This document shows, piece by piece, positions 14,110-32,014 of a stretch of DNA of 38,976 bases. Source of the DNA: Nitrospirota bacterium (GTDB lineage Bacteria > Nitrospirota > Leptospirillia > Leptospirillales > Leptospirillaceae); contig DAHXNG010000116.1 of assembly GCA_027366615.1 (NCBI GenBank), positions 1 to 38,976 of the forward strand, given 5' to 3'. Every line of letters starts with the position of its first letter. The first letter of the stretch is position 1. Position numbers and translations under genes: made by a program. Under the pieces are notes generated by a model. It did no database searches and had not been told where the DNA came from. It worked only from the letters and a program-made list of their open reading frames with translations.

Positions 14110-14448
14110 CTACTCCTCCCCTTCCTCGTCATGGCCACCCTGACCACCGTCCCGCCCGCCAATAAGACCTGAACCATGGCCTGAACCGTGGCCCGGTTTT
14201 TCAAGCTCGTGCTTAAAATACCAGGAGATCCCGAGATACAGGAAGACCGGTATCAGGATTCCCAGCAGAAAGAACAGGTAGGCAAACCAGGGAAGTCCCA
14301 GAGTGACGTGGACATATCGGGGAAGATAGGCCCATGCCGGGGTCGAAAGAAAAATTACCCCTCCCCCCCATAGTGAACCCAGCAGAAGGGGTTTGTAAAG
14401 AAACCCCTTCCCCCCAGACCTCCCCGTTGAACTTCCAACATGTCTCAC
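14110..14448 (-). CDS. Hypothetical membrane protein (112 aa) with a Gly/His-rich tail
   Basis: Two hydrophobic helices and C-terminal HELEKPGHGSGHGSGLIGGRDGGQGGHDEEGEE; stop abuts the upstream CcoN-like gene. Confidence 0.65.
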   Translation of the reverse strand: MRHVGSSTGRSGGKGFLYKPLLLGSLWGGGVIFLSTPAWAYLPRYVHVTLGLPWFAYLFFLLGILIPVFLYLGISWYFKHELEKPGHGSGHGSGLIGGRDGGQGGHDEEGEE

Positions 14449-15035
14449 TAGGAGCGCCCTTCGCCGGCAGCCGCCACGGTGGCCCCCAGTGACGAAGAAA
14501 TCTCCTCACGCTCGTTTTCCGGAAGGGTTTTCCGCCCTTTCGCCACCTGAACCGTCATGTAGATGTTGTAGGCAAAGATGATGTTGGCAAGAAGGACGAA
14601 GGTGCCGAAGATGCCGACCATCTCCATGTAGGGAGCCTCAACAGGCTTGATGTCGGCGACATTTCCGTGAAGGAGGATCATGCCTCCCTTGTAGCCGGCG
14701 ATGCAGAAGGCCAGGACCATCCCGACGAGGCTGATATTGTGCATCCAGAAATGTATCCGGAGAAGGCGATAGCTATAAAGCGGGCCGGCGAAGATCCGGG
14801 GGACGATGTAGTACATGGAGCCGAAGATCGCCATCTCGACCCAGCCCAGAAGGTTGATATGCGTATGGCCGAGGACAATCAGGTCTGACGGTCCGCCCGC
14901 TCCCGCCTGGACAAAATTCCGGAAGGTCTCCACTCCACCCATCACCGCCCCCCACGAAAACCCGATGATCGCGTACAGAAGGCAGGCATAGTAGAACTTC
15001 ATGATATAGTCCTTGATCCGTTCGTCCCTGGTCAT
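14448..15035 (-). CDS. Short haem-copper oxidase subunit I-like (CcoN C-terminal-like) membrane protein
   Basis: GHTHINLLGWVEMAIFGSMYYIVPRIFAGPLYSYRLLRIHFWMHNISLVGMVLAFCIAG resembles the CcoN HVHSGALGW...YHLIPRLFG...YS.RL...HFWLATIG region. Only about 195 aa. Start MTRDERIKDY at 15035. Confidence 0.8.
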   Translation of the reverse strand: MTRDERIKDYIMKFYYACLLYAIIGFSWGAVMGGVETFRNFVQAGAGGPSDLIVLGHTHINLLGWVEMAIFGSMYYIVPRIFAGPLYSYRLLRIHFWMHNISLVGMVLAFCIAGYKGGMILLHGNVADIKPVEAPYMEMVGIFGTFVLLANIIFAYNIYMTVQVAKGRKTLPENEREEISSSLGATVAAAGEGRS

Positions 15036-15089
15036 TGCTCTCTCCTGTTTTTTCCTTGCGGCTATCATTACCTTGTCACTATCCGAAGA

Positions 15090-16217
15090 CTATCTCCGGG
15101 CGTCCATGCAGAGCCGGAAGCCAAAGAAGTCGGAGGCGTAAACCGGCCACGTCGGATTTCTTGCCGTCACGCGGGCGCTATACTGGTCGCTCTTCCACGA
15201 GCCGCCCCGGAGGACATAGTAGCTCTTTCCCTCCACCGGGTGCAGGGCGCCGGTTGCATCGACCCGATAGGCAAAGAAGCGCGCCTTGTTGGCAGTGTTC
15301 CCCGGGTAGGGGCGATAGGGCGAACTCGTCCACTCGAAGACGTTGCCGGCCATGTCGAGCACCCCGTAGGGGCTGGCCCCCATAGAATAGCGATTGACAG
15401 GAGAGGTGTCCCCGACCGTGTAGTTGGCATTAGCCCGCCGCGGATCCCAGACACTCCCCCAGGGCCACATCCTCTTGTCCTGACCACGAGCCGCCTTTTC
15501 CCACTCCTCCTCCGTGCAGAGCCTGGCCCGGCGAAACCTTGCATAATCCCGGGCATTCTCCAGGGACACAAAGGTCACCGGGTAATCTCCCCGCCCGGCG
15601 GGATAGCTCCCGGTCTTCCAGTTGGCCGGGGCCAGATAGTGAAGCTTGTCCACGAAATCCTTGTACTCCCTGTTGGTCACGAGGTGGCGTTCGATGAGAT
15701 AGGGAGGAAGGTAGACCTTGTGGATCGGCTTTTCGTCAAAATTCGCAAAATTGTCCTCGGCCCCCATCCAGAATGGCCCTGCCGGAATCAGGACGAAGCC
15801 CTGGGGGATGCGGTACCCCGAGACGTCAACCTTTATCTGTTCCGTCGGGGAGAGATCCTTTCCTTCTGCCAGCTTCTTTGAGGCCTCCCCCTGGATCATG
15901 GCGTTTTTTGACCCTGGCATCGCCTCTGTAAGCACCCCGCCCATCGGCCTGAACTCCCCGGGCTCTGCCCCGTGCTTTCTGATCGAGGCAGTCGAGAGGC
16001 GAACGATTCGGTTCGAGGCAAGTCCGACCACATGAACGGCCCCTGCGATAAGAATCAGGAGAATAATCGTGATGGCAATCGCTTTCCAGGGAAGCTGCCA
16101 TGGAGACATTTCGGCCGGGGCCAGATCGTCGTCATCGCTGGTAGTGATTTTCTTGCGGGGTTCACCATCGGCCTTTTCAGAGGGAGACTCTTCGTGACCA
16201 TCCTTTAAATCATCCAT
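15090..16217 (-). CDS. Membrane-anchored formylglycine-generating enzyme (SUMF1/FGE-sulfatase)-like protein
   Basis: One N-terminal TM helix, then GFVLIPAGPFWMGAEDNFANFDEKPIHKVYLPPYLIERHLVTNREYKDFV...ASPYGVLDMAGNVFEWTSS...VLRGGSWKSDQYSARVTARN. Confidence 0.92.
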   Translation of the reverse strand: MDDLKDGHEESPSEKADGEPRKKITTSDDDDLAPAEMSPWQLPWKAIAITIILLILIAGAVHVVGLASNRIVRLSTASIRKHGAEPGEFRPMGGVLTEAMPGSKNAMIQGEASKKLAEGKDLSPTEQIKVDVSGYRIPQGFVLIPAGPFWMGAEDNFANFDEKPIHKVYLPPYLIERHLVTNREYKDFVDKLHYLAPANWKTGSYPAGRGDYPVTFVSLENARDYARFRRARLCTEEEWEKAARGQDKRMWPWGSVWDPRRANANYTVGDTSPVNRYSMGASPYGVLDMAGNVFEWTSSPYRPYPGNTANKARFFAYRVDATGALHPVEGKSYYVLRGGSWKSDQYSARVTARNPTWPVYASDFFGFRLCMDARR

Positions 16218-16222
16218 CCTGA

Positions 16223-16798
16223 CTAGATCCTTTCCTTTACCGGAGCGGGAGTCCCTTCAATGACAGCATTCTTGTCCCGCGATAAAACTGTCGCGAAAAC
16301 ATTCCACACAAATGTCCAGTGGCCGATGCCCATAAAGAGGGCCGCCAGGACAAACCCTATCCGATGGTAAGGCTGGTAGACGGCTCGTGCCAGGGGATAG
16401 ACGATCCCCTGGGCAAGCATTCGATTGCCCTCGAGGATACCAAAGGTCAGAAGTACGGAATAAAATCCGACCACTCCCGCCACCATGAAGAAAAAGCTCA
16501 TTTCTCCGAGAAAGGGGCTCCAGATTTTCTTTCCCGAAAGGCGCGGCAGGAGGTAGTAGACCATCGCCATGACCACAGACACCACCCCCCCGATCAGATT
16601 GATGTGGGCATGTGCCAGGGGATCGACAAGATGTCCCGCCTGGCCGGTCATATGGATCCAGTGACGAATCCGGGGGGTCGACTGGAGAAAGCCCTGCATC
16701 GTTCCCACGAAAAGACAAAAGACCCCGAACAGGATAAATCGGAGTCCCAGCTGATCGGTCGAGCTGCTGGCAGATTCGGAGAGTAGTTCGTTCTTCAT
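16223..16798 (-). CDS. Second short haem-copper oxidase subunit I-like membrane protein
   Basis: VDPLAHAHINLIGGVVSVVMAMVYYLLPRLSGKK parallels the HTHINLLGW...YYIVPRI block of the 14448-15035 product. ATG at 16798. Confidence 0.75.
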   Translation of the reverse strand: MKNELLSESASSSTDQLGLRFILFGVFCLFVGTMQGFLQSTPRIRHWIHMTGQAGHLVDPLAHAHINLIGGVVSVVMAMVYYLLPRLSGKKIWSPFLGEMSFFFMVAGVVGFYSVLLTFGILEGNRMLAQGIVYPLARAVYQPYHRIGFVLAALFMGIGHWTFVWNVFATVLSRDKNAVIEGTPAPVKERI

Positions 16799-16823
16799 TC
16801 GCACCTCAAAAAAAGTAGGAAGG

Positions 16824-17264
16824 TCAGGAGATCCGTTCCGGCCCACGGGGTTTGGGGGAGGCGGGGGATGTTCCACGAGCATTTCTCCTTCTCCGGAGGA
16901 CCTCTCCTACATATCCTCCGAGAAAGGAGACCTCGGGAACGGTAATAAAAAAGATCATCATGAAGGGTGCGACGGGGATCCCCACCGTCATCCCCGAGGG
17001 GTGATAGACCTCGTAGAGATAGGTAAAAAGGAGATAGGCCATGGGAGGTATGGGCCCCAGAAGCTTCCCGAATGGCCCGGCAATGTATCCGGTGACAAAG
17101 GAGACAACCAAGGGTGCCAGAAGGTAGGAGAAGAGAATACCCGTTCCGAAAATATGATGAAACGCCCCATCGGTCAGTCCAAGCAGGCGATCTCCCGCAA
17201 AAAACAACAGAAGACCCGCCCCGACTCCCACAAGTGCGGCGGTAGGGTTTAATTTCTTTTTCAT
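16824..17264 (-). CDS. Hypothetical multi-TM membrane protein (146 aa)
   Basis: About four hydrophobic helices, in-line with the oxidase-like cluster. Confidence 0.65.
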   Translation of the reverse strand: MKKKLNPTAALVGVGAGLLLFFAGDRLLGLTDGAFHHIFGTGILFSYLLAPLVVSFVTGYIAGPFGKLLGPIPPMAYLLFTYLYEVYHPSGMTVGIPVAPFMMIFFITVPEVSFLGGYVGEVLRRRRNARGTSPASPKPRGPERIS

Positions 17265-20251: not shown

Positions 20252-20381
20252 ATGCAAACCTTAATTTTGAGGGCATTACACACCCGAAGAATACGCTTTG
20301 ATGTTTTTCTTGTCAAGCCTCTTTTTCTCCTTCCCGAAATTTCCATGGAATCCATTCCTGCGTTCGGTTATTATCCTTATT

Positions 20382-21119
20382 ATGATCAACTCCTCCTCTC
20401 CCGAATCCCCTTTCCCTCCGGAAAAGGGACACCTCTCCCCCGGTCTCCGGATCCGTGATCTTGTGCTGGGAATGAACGACGGGATGGTGACTCTTACGAG
20501 CTTTCTCGGCGGTCTCTCCGGCTCTCCGCTCCCCCGCACATCGATTCTCTATTCCGCCCTCATGACGGCACTTGCGGGGAGTCTTTCCATGGCGGCAGGG
20601 GCCTATCTCGCCACCCGGAGCCAGAACGACCTTGTCCGTCGAGAGATCAAACGCGAGCAATGGGAGATCGAGAACGTTCCCGACCTTGAGAGGAAGGAGG
20701 TCTATGAACTTTTCCTCTCTTTTGGCCTCCCTCCCGCCGAATCGGCCCATGTCACCGACCGGATTGTGGCCGATCCGGCAGTTTGGCACCGGTTCATGGT
20801 CAGGGAGGAGCTGGGCATCCATGAGGAGACGATCGAGTCCCCCATGAAGGGGGCCCTGGTCCTGGGAACATCTTTCCTTGCCGGATCCCTTCCCCCCCTC
20901 CTCCCCTATTTTATTTTTCCCCGGATCGGTGAAGCCTTCTCGGCCTCCCTTCTTTTTTCCCTTCTGGCCCTCGGCGTCACAGGCTCCATCAAATCACGGC
21001 TGGCCGGAGAGAAGGCCTTCAAGGGAGCCGGAGAGATGATTATTCTTGGGGGACTTGCCGGAGCCGCCGGCCTCTTTCTGGGAGAACTGCTTCCCCGTTT
21101 TTTCAACCTTGCCCCCTGA
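20382..21119 (+). CDS. VIT1/CCC1-family Fe2+/Mn2+ transporter
   Basis: IRDLVLGMNDGMVTLTSFLGGLSGS, MTALAGSLSMAAGAYLATRSQNDL, and a cytosolic acidic/basic linker. ATG at 20382 preferred. Confidence 0.88.
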   Translation: MINSSSPESPFPPEKGHLSPGLRIRDLVLGMNDGMVTLTSFLGGLSGSPLPRTSILYSALMTALAGSLSMAAGAYLATRSQNDLVRREIKREQWEIENVPDLERKEVYELFLSFGLPPAESAHVTDRIVADPAVWHRFMVREELGIHEETIESPMKGALVLGTSFLAGSLPPLLPYFIFPRIGEAFSASLLFSLLALGVTGSIKSRLAGEKAFKGAGEMIILGGLAGAAGLFLGELLPRFFNLAP

Positions 21120-22172: not shown

Positions 22173-23238
22173 TCCCGTCTACGCCATAGAAAAGTCTTAC
22201 GATGAAAACTATCTGGAAGGTCCGGTCTTTCACGGGCGAATCCCCAAGACCATCCCTGAAGCTCCCCCGATCTCCTTTCTTGGACTTCCGGCAAACAGTC
22301 GCCTGGGGATCCCGGCCGGCCCCCTCCTGAATTCGGAGTGGATCAGCTTCTATGCCCGGATGGGGTTCGACCTTCTCGTCTACAAGACCGTGCGCACACA
22401 CCCCCATCCTTCCTACCCCTCCCCCAATTGCCTTTATGTCTCCGTCAACGGTGACCTGACTCCAGACGTACTCTCAACACCCCTGATCGGGATTCCCCGG
22501 ATGGAGCCGGCCTCGATGCGGGATATCACCATCACGAACTCCTTCGGCATGCCAAGCCAGGACCCCTCGGTCTGGCAAAAGGACGTGGCACTCTCCCGAA
22601 CAATGATCGGCCAAGGACAGGTCCTGATCGTCAGCGTTGTGGGAACGGAAAGGGGGGGGGAGTCGATCGGCGACAACTTTGCCCGGGCAGCAAAGATGGC
22701 GGTTGAGGCTGGAGCAATGGCAATCGAAATGAACTTCTCCTGCCCGAACGTCAAGGGGTCGGAGGGCCAGCTTTTTCAGGACCCCAAAGCGGCCGGAGAG
22801 ATCGCCCGAAAGGTTCGGAAGGAGCTTGGCACAGGCACTCCTCTCGTCGCCAAGGTCGGCTATATAGAAAGCGACAAAGCCGCCGGGGATCTCGTCAGTG
22901 CGGTCGCCCCCCACCTCGACGGAATTGCCGCCATCAACACCCTGTCTGCCACGATCATCAACCCGGAAGGCCGCCCGGCACTACCGGGAGAGGGACGGGA
23001 AAGGTCGGGCGTCTGCGGAAACGGGATCCGCAAGGCTGCGCTTGGAGTCGTCTCGCGCCTGGCCCGGGAGATCTCTTCCCGGAAAGTCTCTCTCTCACTG
23101 ATTGGTGTCGGGGGAATCATGACGGTGGAGGATGTCGACCTCTTCCTCACCTCGGGGGCCGACTTTGCGATGGCCGCTACAGGGGCAATGTGGGACCCAT
23201 TTCTGGCCTACCACATGAAGCAGCAGAACCTCAGGTAG
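22159..23238 (+). CDS. Dihydroorotate dehydrogenase-family protein
   Basis: RLGIPAGPLLNS, MAIEMNFSCPNVKG, PLVAKVGYIESD, AAINTLSATI, LIGVGGIMTVEDVDLFLTSGADFAMAATGAMW. Confidence 0.85.
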   Translation: MQIADPVYAIEKSYDENYLEGPVFHGRIPKTIPEAPPISFLGLPANSRLGIPAGPLLNSEWISFYARMGFDLLVYKTVRTHPHPSYPSPNCLYVSVNGDLTPDVLSTPLIGIPRMEPASMRDITITNSFGMPSQDPSVWQKDVALSRTMIGQGQVLIVSVVGTERGGESIGDNFARAAKMAVEAGAMAIEMNFSCPNVKGSEGQLFQDPKAAGEIARKVRKELGTGTPLVAKVGYIESDKAAGDLVSAVAPHLDGIAAINTLSATIINPEGRPALPGEGRERSGVCGNGIRKAALGVVSRLAREISSRKVSLSLIGVGGIMTVEDVDLFLTSGADFAMAATGAMWDPFLAYHMKQQNLR

Positions 23239-24685
23239 ACTCTCTCTTTTGGCTTTCTCTTCCGGGGAAAAGCCTGGAAAAGTACTCCTCGACCTCCTGC
23301 CGATAGCTCCGGTAGGGGTCAAGCATATAGAGGATCTCACCCTCGTCGACCTGAACGCCGAACCACTGGATGATATAGTCGAAAATCCCGGGCGTCTCCA
23401 TAATCGTCTGAATGGCGATTGCCCGACCCTGGGCGCGGGTTCCGACAGGCCCGTCCCGAAGTGCCTGACGCGTCGCCGAGGGGGAGACCAGCCGGCGATG
23501 CGTCCCCTCCTCTTCGAGGGGAAAGAAAAGACCCGTCTCAGGATTGGTGTCGTGGTAAGCCAAATCGAGGCTCTCCATCCAGGGATCATCCCACGACACC
23601 CCCTCCTCCCTGGAAAAACCGTCGAGAAGAACAAACTTCTGTGCCCAGTCGACGCGATCGGCGATGAGGAACGGATCCTTTTTCTCGAGATCGGCAAGGA
23701 CCTCTCTCCAGTTATCGAGAATCCAGTCCGTATCGTCATTTTCCCCGCGAAAGGCCTTTTCTGCCGCTTCGTAGAAGGCCCATTGGATATCGACCGCCTC
23801 GATCGTTCTCCCTTCAGACAGCTCCACCAGCCACTGCATCGACAGATCGTGCGACACCCCCCTGACCGCGGCTACAGGGTCGGCCAGGGGAATGTGCGGA
23901 GCCTCTCCCCGCTCGATCAATGCCAGAACGAGCCGCGTTGTCCCGACCTTGAGCCCCAGGGCAAACTGCGACATGTTCGAATCCCCCAGAAGGAGATGGA
24001 TCCTCCGAAAATGGAGGGGATCGGCCAGAGGTTCGTCGCGGGTATTGACGATGGAGCGGTTCATCTGGACCCACTGATAGAAGGTATTGACCACATAGTC
24101 CGCGCGCTGGGAGATCTGGTAGGGAACAGAGGAAATGTTGTCCGAAAAGGGAAGAATGATGTCGTTGATGTGGGAGGCTCCAACGCGGCCGGCCCCGGCG
24201 AAGATCTGGCGAGTGACGAGGAAGGCCACGAGAGGATCAAGCCCCCGCTCGTTGAAGGGAAAACTACGGGGGACTGAATAGTTTTCGTGGGAGCCGAAGG
24301 TGGCAAGTGTCTGGTGGTCGATATTGTTCTTGATAAAGGAGACCTGGCCGGAGAGTCCCAGGTCGGCCAGCGCCTCGGTCAGAAGAAGATCTCCCGCGCG
24401 GTCCATGGCCACGAGGTCCAGGATCGTCCCGCATTCGGGAGAGGCATATTCGACATGGCCCATGTCGACATAGAGACGGCCTCCATTTAGCAGGAAGCCT
24501 CCGTTTCCGGGAGGCTCATCGTAGGCCCTCTGATGGAGGTCGATAAGGCCCGCCACCTTTTCCCGGAAAAGATGGTCGCGGACCTTGCGAAAGAGCTCCT
24601 CCTGACGGATCATGGACGCCCCCTGACCCTCCGGATCCCGGATGAGGAGACCGAACTCCGTCTCGATCCCGCAAAGAAACTTCAC
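23231..24685 (-). CDS. pafA: PafA-type Pup/UBact ligase
   Basis: CGIETEFGLLIRD; NGGRLYVDMGHVEYASPECGT; FIKNNIDHQTLATFGSHENYSVPR; NTRDEPLADPLHFRRIHLLLGDSNMSQ; LDLAYHDTNPETG. Lacks the acidic Dop-loop insertion seen in the 26484-28061 paralogue. Confidence 0.93.
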   Translation of the reverse strand: MKFLCGIETEFGLLIRDPEGQGASMIRQEELFRKVRDHLFREKVAGLIDLHQRAYDEPPGNGGFLLNGGRLYVDMGHVEYASPECGTILDLVAMDRAGDLLLTEALADLGLSGQVSFIKNNIDHQTLATFGSHENYSVPRSFPFNERGLDPLVAFLVTRQIFAGAGRVGASHINDIILPFSDNISSVPYQISQRADYVVNTFYQWVQMNRSIVNTRDEPLADPLHFRRIHLLLGDSNMSQFALGLKVGTTRLVLALIERGEAPHIPLADPVAAVRGVSHDLSMQWLVELSEGRTIEAVDIQWAFYEAAEKAFRGENDDTDWILDNWREVLADLEKKDPFLIADRVDWAQKFVLLDGFSREEGVSWDDPWMESLDLAYHDTNPETGLFFPLEEEGTHRRLVSPSATRQALRDGPVGTRAQGRAIAIQTIMETPGIFDYIIQWFGVQVDEGEILYMLDPYRSYRQEVEEYFSRLFPGRESQKREST

Positions 24686-25434
24686 CGAAACCAGTCCGGG
24701 TTGGCCGGGATCCTTCGGATCCTTGCCGTATTGTGCCGATCGACTAAGATGCCCTCCCAGACCCTCTCAGAAAGAAGCCTCCTCCCGCACTCCCCCGCCT
24801 TTTCGGGAATGACGGCGTGACCGGATTCATCCTGCCCAAGCTCTTCCGGAGAGTAGAGAGCCTCGAGAAGAGCCCGCCCGATCCCGGGGAGTACCGAGGA
24901 GAGAGGGGAGAGGTCGGAGGGAAGTCGTCCCTCGAGAAGCTTGGCGATCTTCACCCTTGTCTCTTCGTCAGGGGCCAGGACCGATTGACGTGTGGAGCGA
25001 AGAATATTTCCATCGAAGGAGACCTGGAGGAGGAGGTCCTGATCCGGACTCTGTCCGACTTCGGCCAACAGGACATTCAGGATCACCGGAGGAACGGAGA
25101 TATCCTCGAAGGCTCCCTTGAGTTTGGGAGCCAGACCAAAAAGGGCCAGCCTCTCGATCGTTACGTCTGACGAGGAGCGCTGAAATCCTTCGACGTGAGC
25201 AAGGGAGAGAAGCTGTCCCCGCACCGACTCAAGGTCGGCCGGATGGCCGATCCCGGCGAGGGCCATCCGGTCATAGAGCTCGAAGAGCTTGGGCGTCTGA
25301 CGGTGGAATGTGGCAAGAACGATCCCCTCGAGGACGGAGACGGCCAGAACCGGTGCCGCCCGTTCGAGCTGGGAAGAGATGTAGTCCCGCCGTTGATGGA
25401 TGGCATCGATCCAGCGGTAGGGCTCATCGAACAC
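24682..25434 (-). CDS. prcA: 20S proteasome alpha-type subunit
   Basis: Position in cluster; N-terminal helix then APVLAVSVLEGIVLATFHRQTPKLFELYDRMALAGIGHPADLE (proteasome alpha core). Overlaps pafA by 4 bp. Confidence 0.9.
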   Translation of the reverse strand: MFDEPYRWIDAIHQRRDYISSQLERAAPVLAVSVLEGIVLATFHRQTPKLFELYDRMALAGIGHPADLESVRGQLLSLAHVEGFQRSSSDVTIERLALFGLAPKLKGAFEDISVPPVILNVLLAEVGQSPDQDLLLQVSFDGNILRSTRQSVLAPDEETRVKIAKLLEGRLPSDLSPLSSVLPGIGRALLEALYSPEELGQDESGHAVIPEKAGECGRRLLSERVWEGILVDRHNTARIRRIPANPDWFR

Positions 25435-26254
25435 GCATCACCTCGCTTCTGTAAAGGAGGGCGATCTCCTGGTCTGCGACCGTCTCGAGAGAGCTTCCCG
25501 TCAGGAGGCGAACGACCGGATAGACAGGATCCTGGCCCTCAACCCCCCCTGTGGCCGAATCAAAATAGGAGGCGGTCTCAAGAAGACGGAGCGAGAGGAG
25601 TAGTGCCTCCTCCCGCGAAAGCGAGCCAAGCCGTTTCTCTCCCCATCGGTCAAGATAGCGAAGGATTCCCTGAACCTCGGGAGAGCCTGAGCCGCCCACA
25701 GAAAACTCAACCCCTTCGAAATGCGCCCCCAGGATGTCGTAGAAATAGATTCTGACGACATCACCATCCCGGGCGACGAAGAGAGGAGCCACGGCGCCGA
25801 TGCCCTCCACGGCCATGGAAAGATTGTCCTTGAGAAGCTGTGCCAGGATCCGAAGCTTTCCCTCGAGCGAGATCTCGGAGAGCTGGCTTCTCCGATAGAA
25901 CTTGAGAGAATGATCGAGGATGCGCCCCATCTCGAGCGCCATGGCGGGGGAACCGGAGATGGCAAGAAGGGCCGATCCGTCGATTTCGAGGATCTTGTCG
26001 ACCCGGTTGGACATGATCCGGTTGGATGCGGTCGCTCTCCGGTCTCCCGCCACCAGAACGCCCTCTTTATAGTGGAAGGCCAGGATGGTCGTTCCGTGGG
26101 CGGCGCCCCGGAGCCCCTCCCCGCCAGAGAGGCGTGAGCTCCCCCCGGTCAGACCGGAGGAGCTATAGGGACGAAGAAGATCGGGAAGATAACCCGGTCG
26201 CGGAGGGGGAAAGCCTCCAGCTCCCGGAAGGGAATGTCTCTCGGAAGAGTTCAC
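25424..26254 (-). CDS. prcB: 20S proteasome beta-type subunit with cleavable propeptide
   Basis: Propeptide ending ...GLRGAAHG followed by TTILAFHYKEGVLVAGDRRATASN (catalytic Thr1); GTG start 3 bp after the ubact stop. Confidence 0.95.
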   Translation of the reverse strand: MNSSERHSLPGAGGFPPPRPGYLPDLLRPYSSSGLTGGSSRLSGGEGLRGAAHGTTILAFHYKEGVLVAGDRRATASNRIMSNRVDKILEIDGSALLAISGSPAMALEMGRILDHSLKFYRRSQLSEISLEGKLRILAQLLKDNLSMAVEGIGAVAPLFVARDGDVVRIYFYDILGAHFEGVEFSVGGSGSPEVQGILRYLDRWGEKRLGSLSREEALLLSLRLLETASYFDSATGGVEGQDPVYPVVRLLTGSSLETVADQEIALLYRSEVMRVR

Positions 26255-26257
26255 GGT

Positions 26258-26500
26258 CTACTCCCCTGTCCGTTGGCGGTAGCGCTCCGACTGTTTCGGG
26301 TCGACCTTCCGCATGCGATCCATCATTCTGTCCCGAATGGGCTTCGGATCAAGGTTTTTGGGGGCCGGAGCCGTTGGATCCTGGCTTTTTTTGGAGGGAA
26401 ACGGAACCCGATCCTGTTCGTCAAGCGTTCCTGGTGTTGTCAAGGCGATGCCCTCCAACCGGTTGCCTTTCAGAGTCCCGAGCCTACCTGTTCGCTCCAT
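26258..26500 (-). CDS. ubact: UBact/Pup-like protein modifier (80 aa)
   Basis: Disordered Pro/Lys/Asp-rich peptide ending ...RDRMMDRMRKVDPKQSERYRQRTGE, encoded between dop and prcB exactly where pup lies in actinobacteria. Confidence 0.93.
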   Translation of the reverse strand: MERTGRLGTLKGNRLEGIALTTPGTLDEQDRVPFPSKKSQDPTAPAPKNLDPKPIRDRMMDRMRKVDPKQSERYRQRTGE

Positions 26501-28061
26501 CGAAGCCTCCTTCTTTGTTCATCTCCCGAATGATCGCCTCAAGATGTGCAGGATCGTCCATTCCGGCAATCCGGTCCAAAAGACGCCGAACCTTGCCCGC
26601 ATCGGTTTCAAGATAGGGGGGAAGATCGAAGGTCACCCCCCCTGAAAAGGCAATCCTCTCCCACCCGGCCTCCCGGACCTCTCCTCCGAAGCGGGAGAGA
26701 ATTGCCGAGCGGATAGGGGCACGGCCCAGGGCGGGAGGGTGCTCGCAGGCATCACGGACATCCTCCGGCCGGGTCAACCGCCTCATGCTTCCCTCCTCTT
26801 CGAGAGGCCAGAAGAGCCCCTCGCCCGGATCGATGTCATGATAGGCCAGATCGAGGCTCTGGAGCCACGGATCCCCCGGGACCACACGTTGCTCCTGGCA
26901 AGCCCACCCGAGAAGGGATTCCTTGGCCACCCAATCCACCCGGTCTCCAAGGCGGTCAGAATCAGCCCGGTAGTCGGAAAGTGCCCTGTCCCACTCCTCG
27001 ACAACCCAGCGGTCCTCTTCGCTCCGAACGACGACATCGACGCGTTCCCGGTAGAGGGAGAGGATTCCGTCCGCCGTCATCATCCTCCCGTCCTCGCAGG
27101 CCACTGCGACATCTCCCTTTCTGGACCGGGAGATGGAGCGGATGGCCGCCACCGGATCGGCGAGGTCGGGGACTTTGCCGGGATGGACAAAAAGGGAGGC
27201 GAGGACGAGACGCGTCATCCCCATCTTCATGGCCGTCTGCCACTCCGACATGTTGGCATCCCCGCAGATAAGGTGGAGGCGGCGGTAGCGCTCCCTGTCG
27301 GCATGGGGCTCGTCGCGACTGTTCACCAAAGGGCGACGCTGCATGGTATCGACCCCTGTCAGGGTCTCCATGAAGTCTGCGCGCTGGGAGAGCTGATATC
27401 CGTCAGACCGGATCCCGTCCTCCCCCTCCTGTCCCACCTTCCCCGCGCCGGTCAGAATAATGCGGGCCACGAGGAAGGGGGTAATACCCCGGACAATCTC
27501 GGAGAAGGACATCTCCCGGGGAAGAAGGTAGTTTTCGTGACAGCCGTAACTGTGTCCATGGAAGTCGGTATTGTTCCGGTAGAGTCCGAGGACACCGGGC
27601 TGTCCGACGACAGCCTCCCGGAGACGCACCGCCTCCCGGAGGATCTCTGTCCCCGCCCGGTCAAAGAGAATCATATCGCGGAGCGTCAAACACTCGGGGG
27701 TGGAGTATTCGGGATGGGTATGGTCGTTGTAAAAGCGGGCCCCGTTCTTCAGAATCCGGTCGCTCTTGGACTCCCGAAACGAAAACCCACGCCGAATATC
27801 CGTCTGGAGGAATGCCTCCTCCTCCTCGTCCTGGGCGAGACGCTCTGCCCGACCGCCCCGGGCATCGGCCCGGGGATCCTCCTCGTCATAGGCCCAGATG
27901 CCGAACGAGGTCTCCCGATAGGCCCGGACAAGCTCCATTGATTCGAGGACCGGATCGGAGATCTCCAGATCCTTTCGAATGATGCCAAACTCTGTCTCGA
28001 TCCCGCAGAGAATGTCGCCCGTTCCGAAATTGCAGGGATCCCTTCGCCGCTGTGGCTCCAT
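26484..28061 (-). CDS. dop: Dop-type depupylase/deamidase homologue
   Basis: CGIETEFGIIRKD; acidic insertion DPRADARGGRAERLAQDEEEEAFLQ; NGARFYNDHTHPEYSTPEC; YRNNTDFHGHSYGCHENYLLPR; NSRDEPHADRERYRRLHLICGDANMSE. Confidence 0.93.
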   Translation of the reverse strand: MEPQRRRDPCNFGTGDILCGIETEFGIIRKDLEISDPVLESMELVRAYRETSFGIWAYDEEDPRADARGGRAERLAQDEEEEAFLQTDIRRGFSFRESKSDRILKNGARFYNDHTHPEYSTPECLTLRDMILFDRAGTEILREAVRLREAVVGQPGVLGLYRNNTDFHGHSYGCHENYLLPREMSFSEIVRGITPFLVARIILTGAGKVGQEGEDGIRSDGYQLSQRADFMETLTGVDTMQRRPLVNSRDEPHADRERYRRLHLICGDANMSEWQTAMKMGMTRLVLASLFVHPGKVPDLADPVAAIRSISRSRKGDVAVACEDGRMMTADGILSLYRERVDVVVRSEEDRWVVEEWDRALSDYRADSDRLGDRVDWVAKESLLGWACQEQRVVPGDPWLQSLDLAYHDIDPGEGLFWPLEEEGSMRRLTRPEDVRDACEHPPALGRAPIRSAILSRFGGEVREAGWERIAFSGGVTFDLPPYLETDAGKVRRLLDRIAGMDDPAHLEAIIREMNKEGGFDGANR

Positions 28062-28070
28062 GGACAGAAA

Positions 28071-29771
28071 TTACTCGATCGCCCGGGAGACAAAACGGGC
28101 TCCCGGGGAGGCGGTCCGGACGCGTCGGACATCGACCACGTCCTGGGTCTCGATGTCCTGGAGGCCCATCCAGTCGAGGGCCATCTCCGGTGGGGGGAGG
28201 ATATCCCCCTCATCAAACTCTGTATTCACGGCCCAAAGGAGATCGTCGAGGGTCACGCCTCCCCCCTTCGCCTCCTCGATTTCGCGAAGAAGAGCCCGCT
28301 CCTTCGCCCGCTGGACAACCGACCCGAGTACGGCCCCGCTCGAAAGGTCGGAGCGGTAGATCGGCGTTCTCGCACCTGAGCGCCGGAGCACCTCAAAGAC
28401 AATATTGCCATCGGAGCGCTCGAAAAACCGGTCGCGGAAGATCCGCAGGAGCGTCTGCCGATCGCCTGAGGATGTATCAAGGGGAACGGTCTCTCCCATG
28501 TGGATCCCGAGGATCTCCAGTGCGGCATCCGAAGAGGGGCGGAGCACCTTTATCTTGCGGTCGATCCGACCCGGGCGCAGGATCGCCGGGTCGATCATCT
28601 CGGGACGATTGGTGGCAAGGATAACCATCTCGAAGCCACCGGGGCCTTCAAGACCGTCGAGAAGCGCACAGAACATCGGGACGATCGTATTGTGGATACT
28701 GAAACCGCGCCCGGATCGACGGGTTCCGAGGATCGCCTCCGCCTCATCGATGAAAAGAACGGGGAAATCGCCCGCCGACCTGATCTTCTCTCCCTCTTCG
28801 AAGAGCTCGCGGACGATGCGCTCGGACTCGCCGAGCCACATATTGAGAATCTCGGGGCCCTTGATGTGAAAGAAGACCCCCTTGAGATCCCGCCCCTTCT
28901 TGCTGGAGAGACGCTCGGCGATCTCCCGGGCGGTGGCCTTTCCGATCAGCGTCTTTCCGCACCCCGGGGGGCCGTAAAGAAGAAATCCCCGGGGAGAGCG
29001 GAAGTTGTAGCGGGCATAAGACTCCGGATAGAGAAGCGGGTTCAGGATCGCCTTCTTGATCTCTCCAATGGCATCCTGCTGTCCACCGATCGACTCCCAG
29101 CCGACCTTGGGCACCTCAGCCAGAAGATATCCCTCTTCCCTCTTCCGGACCTTTTCGACGATCACCCGCGAGGTACTGTCGAGGCGGACAAGATCTCCCG
29201 CCGACAGGCTCTGCCCATCGAGGATCTCGGACCGGTCGAGAACGGTGCCGAGCTGGCTGTCGGGACGGTCGGATCCCACCTCGACGCGCCCGTCGGAAAG
29301 CTCCCGTGCCACCCGGACCACAGGTCCGGCCATGTCGGGGCCGAGTGCGCCCAGAACGGAGAGCGCCTCGTTAAGACGAACCCTGTCCCCCTTCTTGAGG
29401 GTCAATAGGTCGACCCGCGGATCCACAGAGGCCTGGTAGTCTCCCCCACCGACCGTGACCCAAACAAGTCCGTCCTCTGCCCGACCCAGACAGGTTCCGA
29501 TCCGAAAAGCCGGCTTTGTCACCTTCTCCAGGACCTCGGAGAGCCGAGCCGACTCGACGGAAAGCTTCTGCCAGTCGTTTTCGATCTCGAGAAGCCGCTT
29601 CTTGATCCTGTAGGCCAGTCGAATCTCCTCCTCTCTCCCGTCGAGTCTCCGCAGGAGGCTCTCCACCCCTTCGAGGATCTCCCCAAAGGGGCCGGCCCCC
29701 CCGCCCTCGCCCTGGGAATGTCCTGAGGAGGATGCGGGAGACTTTCTTGTCAGCGGATCATTCTTGTCCAT
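28071..29771 (-). CDS. arc: Proteasomal AAA ATPase ARC/Mpa
   Basis: Coiled-coil N-terminus, OB domains, Walker A GFLLYGPPGCGKTLIGKATA, Walker B PVLFIDEAEAILGTR, NMWLGESERIVRE, RPGRIDRKIKV. Start taken at MDKNDPLTRK (29771). Confidence 0.94.
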   Translation of the reverse strand: MDKNDPLTRKSPASSSGHSQGEGGGAGPFGEILEGVESLLRRLDGREEEIRLAYRIKKRLLEIENDWQKLSVESARLSEVLEKVTKPAFRIGTCLGRAEDGLVWVTVGGGDYQASVDPRVDLLTLKKGDRVRLNEALSVLGALGPDMAGPVVRVARELSDGRVEVGSDRPDSQLGTVLDRSEILDGQSLSAGDLVRLDSTSRVIVEKVRKREEGYLLAEVPKVGWESIGGQQDAIGEIKKAILNPLLYPESYARYNFRSPRGFLLYGPPGCGKTLIGKATAREIAERLSSKKGRDLKGVFFHIKGPEILNMWLGESERIVRELFEEGEKIRSAGDFPVLFIDEAEAILGTRRSGRGFSIHNTIVPMFCALLDGLEGPGGFEMVILATNRPEMIDPAILRPGRIDRKIKVLRPSSDAALEILGIHMGETVPLDTSSGDRQTLLRIFRDRFFERSDGNIVFEVLRRSGARTPIYRSDLSSGAVLGSVVQRAKERALLREIEEAKGGGVTLDDLLWAVNTEFDEGDILPPPEMALDWMGLQDIETQDVVDVRRVRTASPGARFVSRAIE

Positions 29772-30014
29772 GAACTGGGACCTCGTTATCAAAAGAGTTG
29801 TCTGCCCGATCCCTTCCCGACCCTGGAATTCCAACAAGACTTATGGGAGGGAATCTGCATACGGACGCGGCCAAAGAGGTGAAGATTTACATTAGGAGAA
29901 TCTGCCCCATGAAAAAGACTCCTCCCAAGCTGGAGGAAAGGTCCACGGTCTCCATTACCATCCTACGGCCCTCCGGCTTCGAGGTCAATTCTGGCGTCAG
30001 CGGAAAACTCCGGA

Positions 30015-30832: not shown

Positions 30833-32014
30833 ATGTCAAAGACTGAACTGATCCGGACCACCTATACTATCCGCACCGACGACATTCCCCGCGCGGCGAA
30901 CCTGATCGCCCGGGAGATGAGCCTGGGGGTCAAGAAGACCTCCTATGAGACGGCCCAGACGGAGAGCTTTGCCGCCCGTCCGGCCATTTTGAAGTCCGGC
31001 AAGGGCAAGGCCACGGTGGAGATCATGGTTCCGTCCCAGCGCATCGCCTCGGCCTACGGACTGGTCCTGTCGATCGCCGGGGAGATCAGCTGTCTCAACA
31101 TCCTGAAGTCGATCGAGCTCACCGACTTCCATCCGCCGGAGACCCTCCTCTCCCGGTTCCCGGGCCCCCAGTTCGGCGCCGGGGGGATCGCAAAACGGCG
31201 CAAGATCAAAGACCGCCCTCTCTTCATCACCGTCCTCAAGCCGTCACAGGGACTCACGCCCGCAGAGTACGCCCATATCGCCTACGAAAGCCTGGTGGGC
31301 GGCATGGATGTGGTCAAGAGCGATGAACTCCTCCAGGAGCCTGCGGAGGATTATATCAAACGTCTTGCGGCAACTGTCGAGGCCGCCCGACGTGCCGAGG
31401 AGGAGACAGGGGAGCCCAAGTGGGTCATGATGCACACCGTGGACAGGCCCTCCGTCATGGTCGAGCGATACCTGGCCGGGGGACGGGCCGGAGCGAAAAT
31501 CGCCATGCTGAGCCCTGCCGCCTCGGGGTTTCCCCTGCTCGAAGAGCTGGCCCGACATGCCGTCGCCCCGATCATGGCCCACATGGCGACCTCCGACTGG
31601 CTCTGGCAGCCCCACGGGATGTCCGTCCGGGCCTGGGCCCGGTTCATGCGGATCCTGGGCTCGGATATCATCCTCTACCCGGCCCTCGCAGGAACACTTA
31701 AGGCCAAAAAGACGCATCTCAAGAGCGTCCTTGAAATCTGCCGGGAGCCCATGGGCTCCCTGAAAACATCCCTGATCGCCGTAGGCGGAGGGATGCATGC
31801 GGGGACCCTGGGGCTCCACGCCGACATGTTCGGACCCGACTTTGCCTATCTCTGCGGGGGCGGTGTCTGCGGACATCCCGACGGCGCGCGGGCGGGAGGA
31901 CAGTCGATCCGGCAGTCCTGGGAGGCCTGGTCCCAGAAGATCCCCCTTGATCGCTACCGCAAGACCCACAAAGCCCTGGATCGCGCTCTTACAGCCTTCG
32001 CGACCTACGTATAG
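30833..32014 (+). CDS. RuBisCO-like protein (form IV)
   Basis: RuBisCO large-chain fold blocks: ITVLKPSQGLTPAEYA, SLVGGMDVVKSDELL, GGGMHAGTLGLHADMFGPDFAYLCGGGVCGHPDG. Several carboxylase residues substituted. Confidence 0.92.
   Translation: MSKTELIRTTYTIRTDDIPRAANLIAREMSLGVKKTSYETAQTESFAARPAILKSGKGKATVEIMVPSQRIASAYGLVLSIAGEISCLNILKSIELTDFHPPETLLSRFPGPQFGAGGIAKRRKIKDRPLFITVLKPSQGLTPAEYAHIAYESLVGGMDVVKSDELLQEPAEDYIKRLAATVEAARRAEEETGEPKWVMMHTVDRPSVMVERYLAGGRAGAKIAMLSPAASGFPLLEELARHAVAPIMAHMATSDWLWQPHGMSVRAWARFMRILGSDIILYPALAGTLKAKKTHLKSVLEICREPMGSLKTSLIAVGGGMHAGTLGLHADMFGPDFAYLCGGGVCGHPDGARAGGQSIRQSWEAWSQKIPLDRYRKTHKALDRALTAFATYV

Follow-up and report, generated by a model that had tools for sequence, protein, structure and literature searches.

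The contig DAHXNG010000116.1 of the Nitrospirota assembly GCA_027366615.1 (38,976 nucleotides, referred to over its full length as the window) carries a six-gene operon for the protein modifier UBact and a proteasome. We consider it likely that this UBact-type operon provides a degradation pathway specific for UBact, in which the docking of the ATPase (ARC) on the 20S core is re-keyed, and which is probably insulated from the pathway of a second tag, Pup, in the same genome. The UBact branch appears, from its sequences, to have changed both sides of the lock between the ATPase and the core: the tail of ARC has no docking Tyr, and the pocket of the alpha subunit PrcA has a hydrophobic residue in place of the Glu that binds the Tyr in Mycobacterium tuberculosis.

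The genes are arranged on the minus strand from 29771 to 23231 as arc-dop-UBact-prcB-prcA-pafA. A preliminary description of the window had given this order, and a check of the open reading frames (ORFs) places all six genes as described. The overlaps it reported are exact to the base (dop/tag, 17 bp; prcB/prcA, 11 bp; prcA/pafA, 4 bp), and gaps of 9 bp and 3 bp are found at arc/dop and tag/prcB, respectively. Its assignment of the modifier as UBact-like is borne out by matches to NF033388 (63.7 bits, cut-off 35) and PF20513 (54.7 bits, cut-off 27.8), both above the curated cut-offs. The profile search that it proposed for the six proteins assigns ARC, Dop, UBact, and PrcB, while giving a weak score for PrcA and a near tie between PafA and Dop for the last gene; apart from the tag, each product scores under the equivalog cut-off that NCBIfam sets for its best-matching model. 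In the window and its relatives, the UBact gene is linked to homologues of arc, dop, prcB, prcA, and pafA. This cassette is found across the phylum, in other Nitrospirota genera and families, and also in records titled Nitrospinota, and such recurrence excludes chance. The first ground for refutation named in the preliminary description, a modifier with no homologue next to proteasome genes in other genomes, therefore does not apply. Judged from its sequence, the operon does encode a UBact-proteasome system, which is a known kind, as the preliminary description had held: UBact was named by Lehmann et al. in 2017 (cited in PMC12751074), and discussion of proteasome loci in Leptospirillum goes back to 2007-2008.

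The ARC tail and the PrcA pocket

It is accepted that proteasomal ATPases use their C-terminus as the key to the 20S core; the actinobacterial motif is GQYL. The window ARC ends with Ala-Ile-Glu, where a (Gln/His)-Tyr-Leu docking ending is expected, and the HbYX/GQYL motif is absent. We compared the tails of 88 non-redundant UBact-ARCs with those of 18 Pup-ARCs of the same phylum. The last two residues of the UBact-ARCs are Ile-Ile (53 sequences), Ile-Glu (16), Ile-Val (12), or Val-Ile (5), so that 86 of the 88 end with [IV][IVE], with two exceptions, and a penultimate Tyr is found in none of the 88. Contrarily, all 18 Pup-ARCs end with HYL. The same contrast holds within each of the ten genomes in which both operons were read. 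The pore loop also differs between the two groups, being MWLGE or MWVGE in 90 of 92 UBact-ARCs (NMWLGE with Trp312 in the window) and KYVGE in 18/18 Pup-ARCs. The predicted model of the window ARC (overall pLDDT 72) has a long coiled-coil-like helix at residues 47-85 and a disordered tail at residues 554-566.

PrcA, the divergent partner of this tail, scores 56 bits with TIGR03691 and 10.9 bits with Pfam, the latter under the gathering threshold of 22.4. Its AlphaFold model (pLDDT 91.7) matches the 20S alpha subunits of M. tuberculosis and Rhodococcus (best E 3.6e-14, TM-score about 0.7-0.8), and residues 3-23 form the N-terminal helix H0 expected of an alpha subunit. In M. tuberculosis, the penultimate Tyr of GQYL binds Arg26 or Glu119 of the alpha subunit, the terminal carboxylate can bind Lys52, and the tail backbone contacts Asp144 and Ser146; the R26A or K52A mutation abolishes PafE-driven degradation (PMC9599533).

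The corresponding pocket was compared between 118 UBact-PrcAs and 17 Pup-PrcAs, with three alignment methods in agreement. The residue equivalent to Lys52 (Lys49 in the window) is kept in all UBact-PrcAs and that equivalent to Asp144 (Asp141) in 117 of them. The residue equivalent to Glu119, which binds the Tyr in the Mpa-20S complex, is Ile, Leu, or Val in 118/118 (Ile118 in the window), and position 26 is mostly Gln. Contrarily, the Pup-PrcAs have Glu119 in 17/17 and Arg or Lys at position 26. The counts of tails and pockets together indicate that one Tyr partner, Glu119, is lost wherever the Tyr is lost, while the anchors Lys52 and Asp144 are kept. In addition, the UBact-PrcAs start about four residues later than canonical PrcAs; the N-terminal end of PrcA closes the gate in M. 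tuberculosis. No description of these differences in tail, pore loop, and pocket is found in the literature searched, which did not include the 2017 UBact paper, and the proposed re-keying of the UBact branch is apparently unreported so far.

A Pup-type operon in the same genome

A ligase-family search of the same genome gives a second enzyme pair on another contig (C105). The genes there (locus L048), arc2, dop2, Pup, prcB2, prcA2, and pafA2, have the same order and a similar overlapping style, though pafA2 is interrupted by the contig end. In contrast to the window, arc2 ends with GHYL, and the tag is a true Pup ending with KGGE (TIGR03687, 60.7 bits). ARC, Pup, PrcB, and PrcA of this contig score above the NCBIfam cut-offs, and the paralogues of the two operons, the tag aside, share 27-38% identity. 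The idea that this second locus has no tag was wrong; its Pup is invisible to the UBact profile.

The tags themselves are clearly separated. UBact ends with Gly-Glu or Gly-Gln (RTGE/RTGQ) beside a conserved RMRKVDPKQxERYRQRT sequence, to which the window tag conforms (alignment A1), whereas Pup ends with KGGE or KGGQ. In an NCBIfam-type search, the window tag, ending with TGE and not GG[EQ], has no match to the Pup model TIGR03687 and matches NF033388 only. Actinobacterial Pup can be aligned with UBact at the last residues only. A second weak UBact-like match in one genome (G140; 24 bits, below the cut-off) lies within, and antisense to, a long ORF resembling a membrane transporter, and was regarded as a chance match.

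Among 296 Nitrospirota genomes, UBact is found in 103 and Pup in 137; 96 have both, 7 have UBact alone, and 41 have Pup alone. As both tags are present in 96 of the 103 UBact carriers, the double system is the rule among them. We lean, with some reserve, toward the view that most UBact-bearing Nitrospirota have two complete and insulated tag-proteasome pathways per cell, the UBact one having its own key (a Tyr-less hydrophobic tail and a Glu-to-Ile pocket) and being a natural orthogonal proteasome and not a redundant copy. The UBact-only set includes a single-contig, 99%-complete genome (G019) of the window's own family. All three genomes of one genus in this family (G019, G066, and G074) have UBact with Pup not detected, and this genus is a natural single-system counterpart with which to compare the double-system genera.

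The location of the Pup gene varies among families. In Nitrospira-type genomes (family f10; L059 in G009:C3 and L060 in G018:C140), a Pup-type arc-dop-prcB-prcA-pafA operon lacks a Pup gene in the dop-prcB interval. Pup is encoded at a distance of tens of kilobases or on a different contig (G009:C3:198657 and G018:C56:8813), while it is inside the operon in the window's family. The idea that these operons belong to genomes that lost Pup was therefore wrong.

Dop, the predicted ligase, and other features of the window

The preliminary description named the last gene pafA. Its position and the missing Dop-loop support this name, but the profile score scarcely separates PafA (310.1 bits) from Dop (306.6 bits). 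The Dop-loop is present in the UBact Dop and mostly missing from the ligase. The GxExE motif and the catalytic Asp are separated by 64-68 residues in UBact ligases and by 50 in canonical PafA, as against 82-89 in canonical and 93-95 in UBact Dops, with two outlying regex hits left out. The alpha-loop of the ligase is unlike that of canonical PafA, where this segment is linked to target binding (PMC7947786), and is replaced by a Trp-containing sequence, e.g. NDFYQWVQFNRA.

In whole-length trees, Dop and PafA of the UBact systems fall together, as do those of the Pup systems (support 100/98 and 96/96). A forced ordinary Dop clade is not rejected on the whole length by the approximately unbiased (AU) test (p 0.19 and 0.08), and an independent origin of the UBact ligase from canonical PafA is thus not established. 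The pairing of the UBact enzymes comes mainly from the signal of one block: in a sliding window, residues around 331-435 of Dop and the matching part of the ligase resemble each other far more closely in the UBact pair than between the systems, while the usual separation of Dop from PafA is favoured, though not significantly, by Dop residues 95-330. The Dop clade is rejected in the 331-435 block with p 0.0003, which is not an unbiased test because the block was picked after the sliding-window profile. The shared block would be compatible with gene conversion as well as with recognition of one tag by both enzymes. It is less certain that Dop and the ligase were converted or co-evolved as a pair, as the grouping by this block may suggest.

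Loci with eroded cores are seen in family f24. While prcB and prcA are intact in one genome (G272), the start of prcB is fused in-frame to the end of prcA in a 96%-complete metagenome-assembled genome (MAG; L074, G130:C37, 3990-4460), apparently by an internal deletion, and the [IV][IVE] ending is missing from the ARC of this MAG. Such joint loss of core and tail is the picture expected when a docking function disappears, seen here in one ATPase of one MAG. A third locus (L174, G296:C69) is down to dop and UBact, arc being absent from the 2.9 kb upstream, and prcB, prcA, and pafA from the 1.7 kb downstream; it is an analogue of proteasome-less pupylation.

Table 1. Genes and residues of the UBact-type operon, with positions in the window
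Feature	Position	Strand	Basis
arc, UBact-type proteasomal AAA ATPase, 566 aa from ATG (a longer TTG-start form begins at 29837)	28071..29771	-	TIGR03689, 345 bits; AAA and two OB domains
ARC Trp312, pore loop	28836..28838	-	pore-loop comparison
ARC last three residues, Ala-Ile-Glu	28074..28082	-	tail comparison
dop, depupylase-type enzyme with Dop-loop, 525 aa	26484..28061	-	TIGR03688, 391 bits; PafA model, 320
Dop Asp113, catalytic (RFYND)	27723..27725	-	aligned with Asp of canonical Dops
Dop residues 331-435, block common with the UBact ligase, not with canonical Dop	26757..27071	-	sliding identity and partition trees; block chosen post hoc
UBact modifier, 80 aa, C-terminal RTGE	26258..26500	-	NF033388 and PF20513
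prcB, 20S beta subunit, 276 aa including 54-aa propeptide	25424..26254	-	TIGR03690, 136 bits
PrcB Thr55, predicted catalytic Thr1 after processing (G/TTILA, Gly54/Thr55)	26090..26092	-	motif
prcA, divergent 20S alpha subunit, 250 aa	24682..25434	-	TIGR03691; AlphaFold model and PDB fold matches
PrcA Lys49 (M. tuberculosis Lys52)	25288..25290	-	pocket comparison
PrcA Ile118 (M. tuberculosis Glu119)	25081..25083	-	pocket comparison
PrcA Asp141 (M. tuberculosis Asp144)	25012..25014	-	pocket comparison
pafA, predicted UBact-protein ligase without full Dop-loop, 484 aa	23231..24685	-	PF03136 (Pup_ligase), 419 bits; loop length
Ligase Asp74, catalytic (RLYVD)	24464..24466	-	alignment
Ligase residues 298-405, partner of the Dop block	23471..23794	-	sliding identity and partition trees

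The genes around the operon (oxidoreductase-, DHOD-, and RuBisCO-like, ThrB, VIT1, and MFS) were considered as functional clues and set aside, being syntenic in close relatives only. The RuBisCO-like protein (30833-32014, plus strand) fits the type III model best, at 187 bits, far below the cut-off, and stands beside the UBact operon in close relatives only. A VIT-family iron/manganese transporter-like gene (20298-21119, plus strand) lies upstream of thrB and is also near the UBact operon in relatives. Farther away on the minus strand (14448-15068, 15090-16217, and 16223-16882), two short ORFs, each matching the C-terminal part of COX1 only, stand on either side of an FGE (sulfatase-modifying-factor) domain protein; they are possibly degenerate or unusual oxidase-related genes.

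Proposed pathway, alternatives, and known systems

We infer the course of tagging, docking, and degradation as follows. The PafA-like ligase of the last gene would join the C-terminal Glu of UBact to target lysines; deamidation would not be needed, since the UBact gene already encodes the RTGE end. Dop would take UBact off the targets. The ARC hexamer would catch UBact with its N-terminal coiled coil, thread it with the Trp-bearing pore loop, and dock on its own PrcA/PrcB core, in which Thr55 of PrcB (mature Thr1) would cut the substrate. Docking would be achieved by the Tyr-less tail (Ile-Glu here; Ile-Ile, Ile-Val, or Val-Ile elsewhere), the equivalents of Lys52 and Asp144 holding the carboxylate and the backbone, and the Tyr site having turned hydrophobic through the change of Glu119 to Ile. 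The Pup operon of the same genome has a GHYL ATPase and a canonical PrcA pocket, and for this reason insulation of the two pathways is probable at the tag, the ligase, and the ATPase/core joint.

Several observations weigh against this proposal. Co-variation within one operon can come from drift in a long-separate lineage. The last residue of the UBact-ARCs depends on the lineage (Glu or Ile/Val), and the tails thus do not show a single fixed motif. The window PrcA still has Arg at position 26, the other Tyr partner, so that the change of its pocket is partial. The fused prcB-prcA gene is from a single MAG and may be real erosion or an assembly fault, and the ligase combines nearly equal PafA and Dop scores with an alpha-loop unlike canonical PafA.

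In one alternative, the UBact and Pup machines would be interchangeable copies, both ATPases docking on both cores, and the differences in tail and pocket would be drift of no functional significance. The order and all the parts are common to the two operons, the shared Lys52 and Asp144 may mean a shared basic docking chemistry, and the 7 UBact-only and 41 Pup-only genomes imply that one system can suffice. However, the differences are non-random: the Tyr is absent from every UBact-ARC and Glu119 from every UBact-PrcA, and the substituting residues are hydrophobic throughout the families; moreover, both systems are retained in 96 genomes. Redundancy of this sort is in our judgment rather unlikely. 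The missing Tyr could also reflect a weakened coupling to proteolysis, with UBact acting mainly as a reversible regulatory modifier and the ATPase/core arm being secondary or unused. The lost docking Tyr and the f24 loci, with a truncated prcB-prcA fusion or only dop and UBact, are in line with this explanation, but in nearly all loci read both core genes are present and encode the catalytic Thr motif and the pocket Lys, the ARC tail is conserved, which is unexpected for an unused end, and the core was lost together with the tail in L074. We regard a mainly regulatory role as improbable. A further alternative concerns the conjugating enzyme: the last gene might be a second Dop-like hydrolase, and UBact might be conjugated by another enzyme or by the PafA of the Pup system. 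This alternative draws on the near tie of the profile scores, the unusual alpha-loop, and the tendency of the trees to pair the last gene with UBact-Dop. It is highly improbable, considering that the last gene is missing most of the Dop-loop yet keeps the catalytic Asp, that it holds the pafA place in every complete locus read, and that UBact-only genomes such as G019 own just this enzyme pair.

The proposed re-keyed, UBact-specific pathway matters because knowledge of bacterial proteasomes comes largely from actinobacterial Pup systems with the GQYL key, whereas the UBact branch keeps all the components without that key, usually beside a standard Pup version in the same cell. Two questions become directly testable: what keeps parallel pathways free of cross-talk, and whether a docking motif can do without its Tyr if the pocket changes along with it. 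The UBact parts are also candidate tools for orthogonal protein degradation.

The operon comes from a partial MAG (1.38 Mb, 70% complete) of an acid-mine Leptospirillum relative, and this host, as a member of Nitrospirota, agrees with the Gram-negative host supposed in the preliminary description. It is a new member of the UBact-system carriers at the species level. The nearest named relatives are "Nitrospirae bacterium" MAGs (e.g. FK3.bin81) and "Leptospirillum sp." MAGs, and its supposed character as an acidophilic iron oxidiser rests on these relatives. A Leptospirillum proteasome was treated by De Mot in 2007, as cited in a 2012 review that also describes the whole system in two copies in L. 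ferrooxidans, one tag being without GGE (PMC3511204). Iyer et al. (2008) included a Leptospirillum sequence in their PafA alignment and listed nitrospirae among Pup carriers (PMC2588565). In a 2014 metatranscriptome, proteasome genes of L. ferrodiazotrophum made up 0.44-1.45% of the transcripts in three mine waters (PMC4478699).

Compared with these systems, the window MAG resembles L. ferrooxidans L2 in having two full system copies per genome, and the second tag without GGE in L2 fits the TGE ending of UBact; the organism is a different one, however, and the second copy of the window MAG is on a separate contig with its pafA cut by the contig end. The window shares with the known UBact-proteasome systems (NF033388/PF20513) the tag family, the gene set and order, and a Gram-negative Nitrospirota host, and the distinctive ARC tail, pore loop, and PrcA pocket hold for this class as a whole. 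With the actinobacterial Pup-proteasome, the UBact set has in common the gene order, enzyme folds, catalytic residues, and the Lys52 and Asp144 equivalents, but it differs in the absence of a GQYL/GHYL tail, the change of Glu119 to Ile, the MWLGE pore loop, the later start of PrcA, and the replaced alpha-loop of the ligase.

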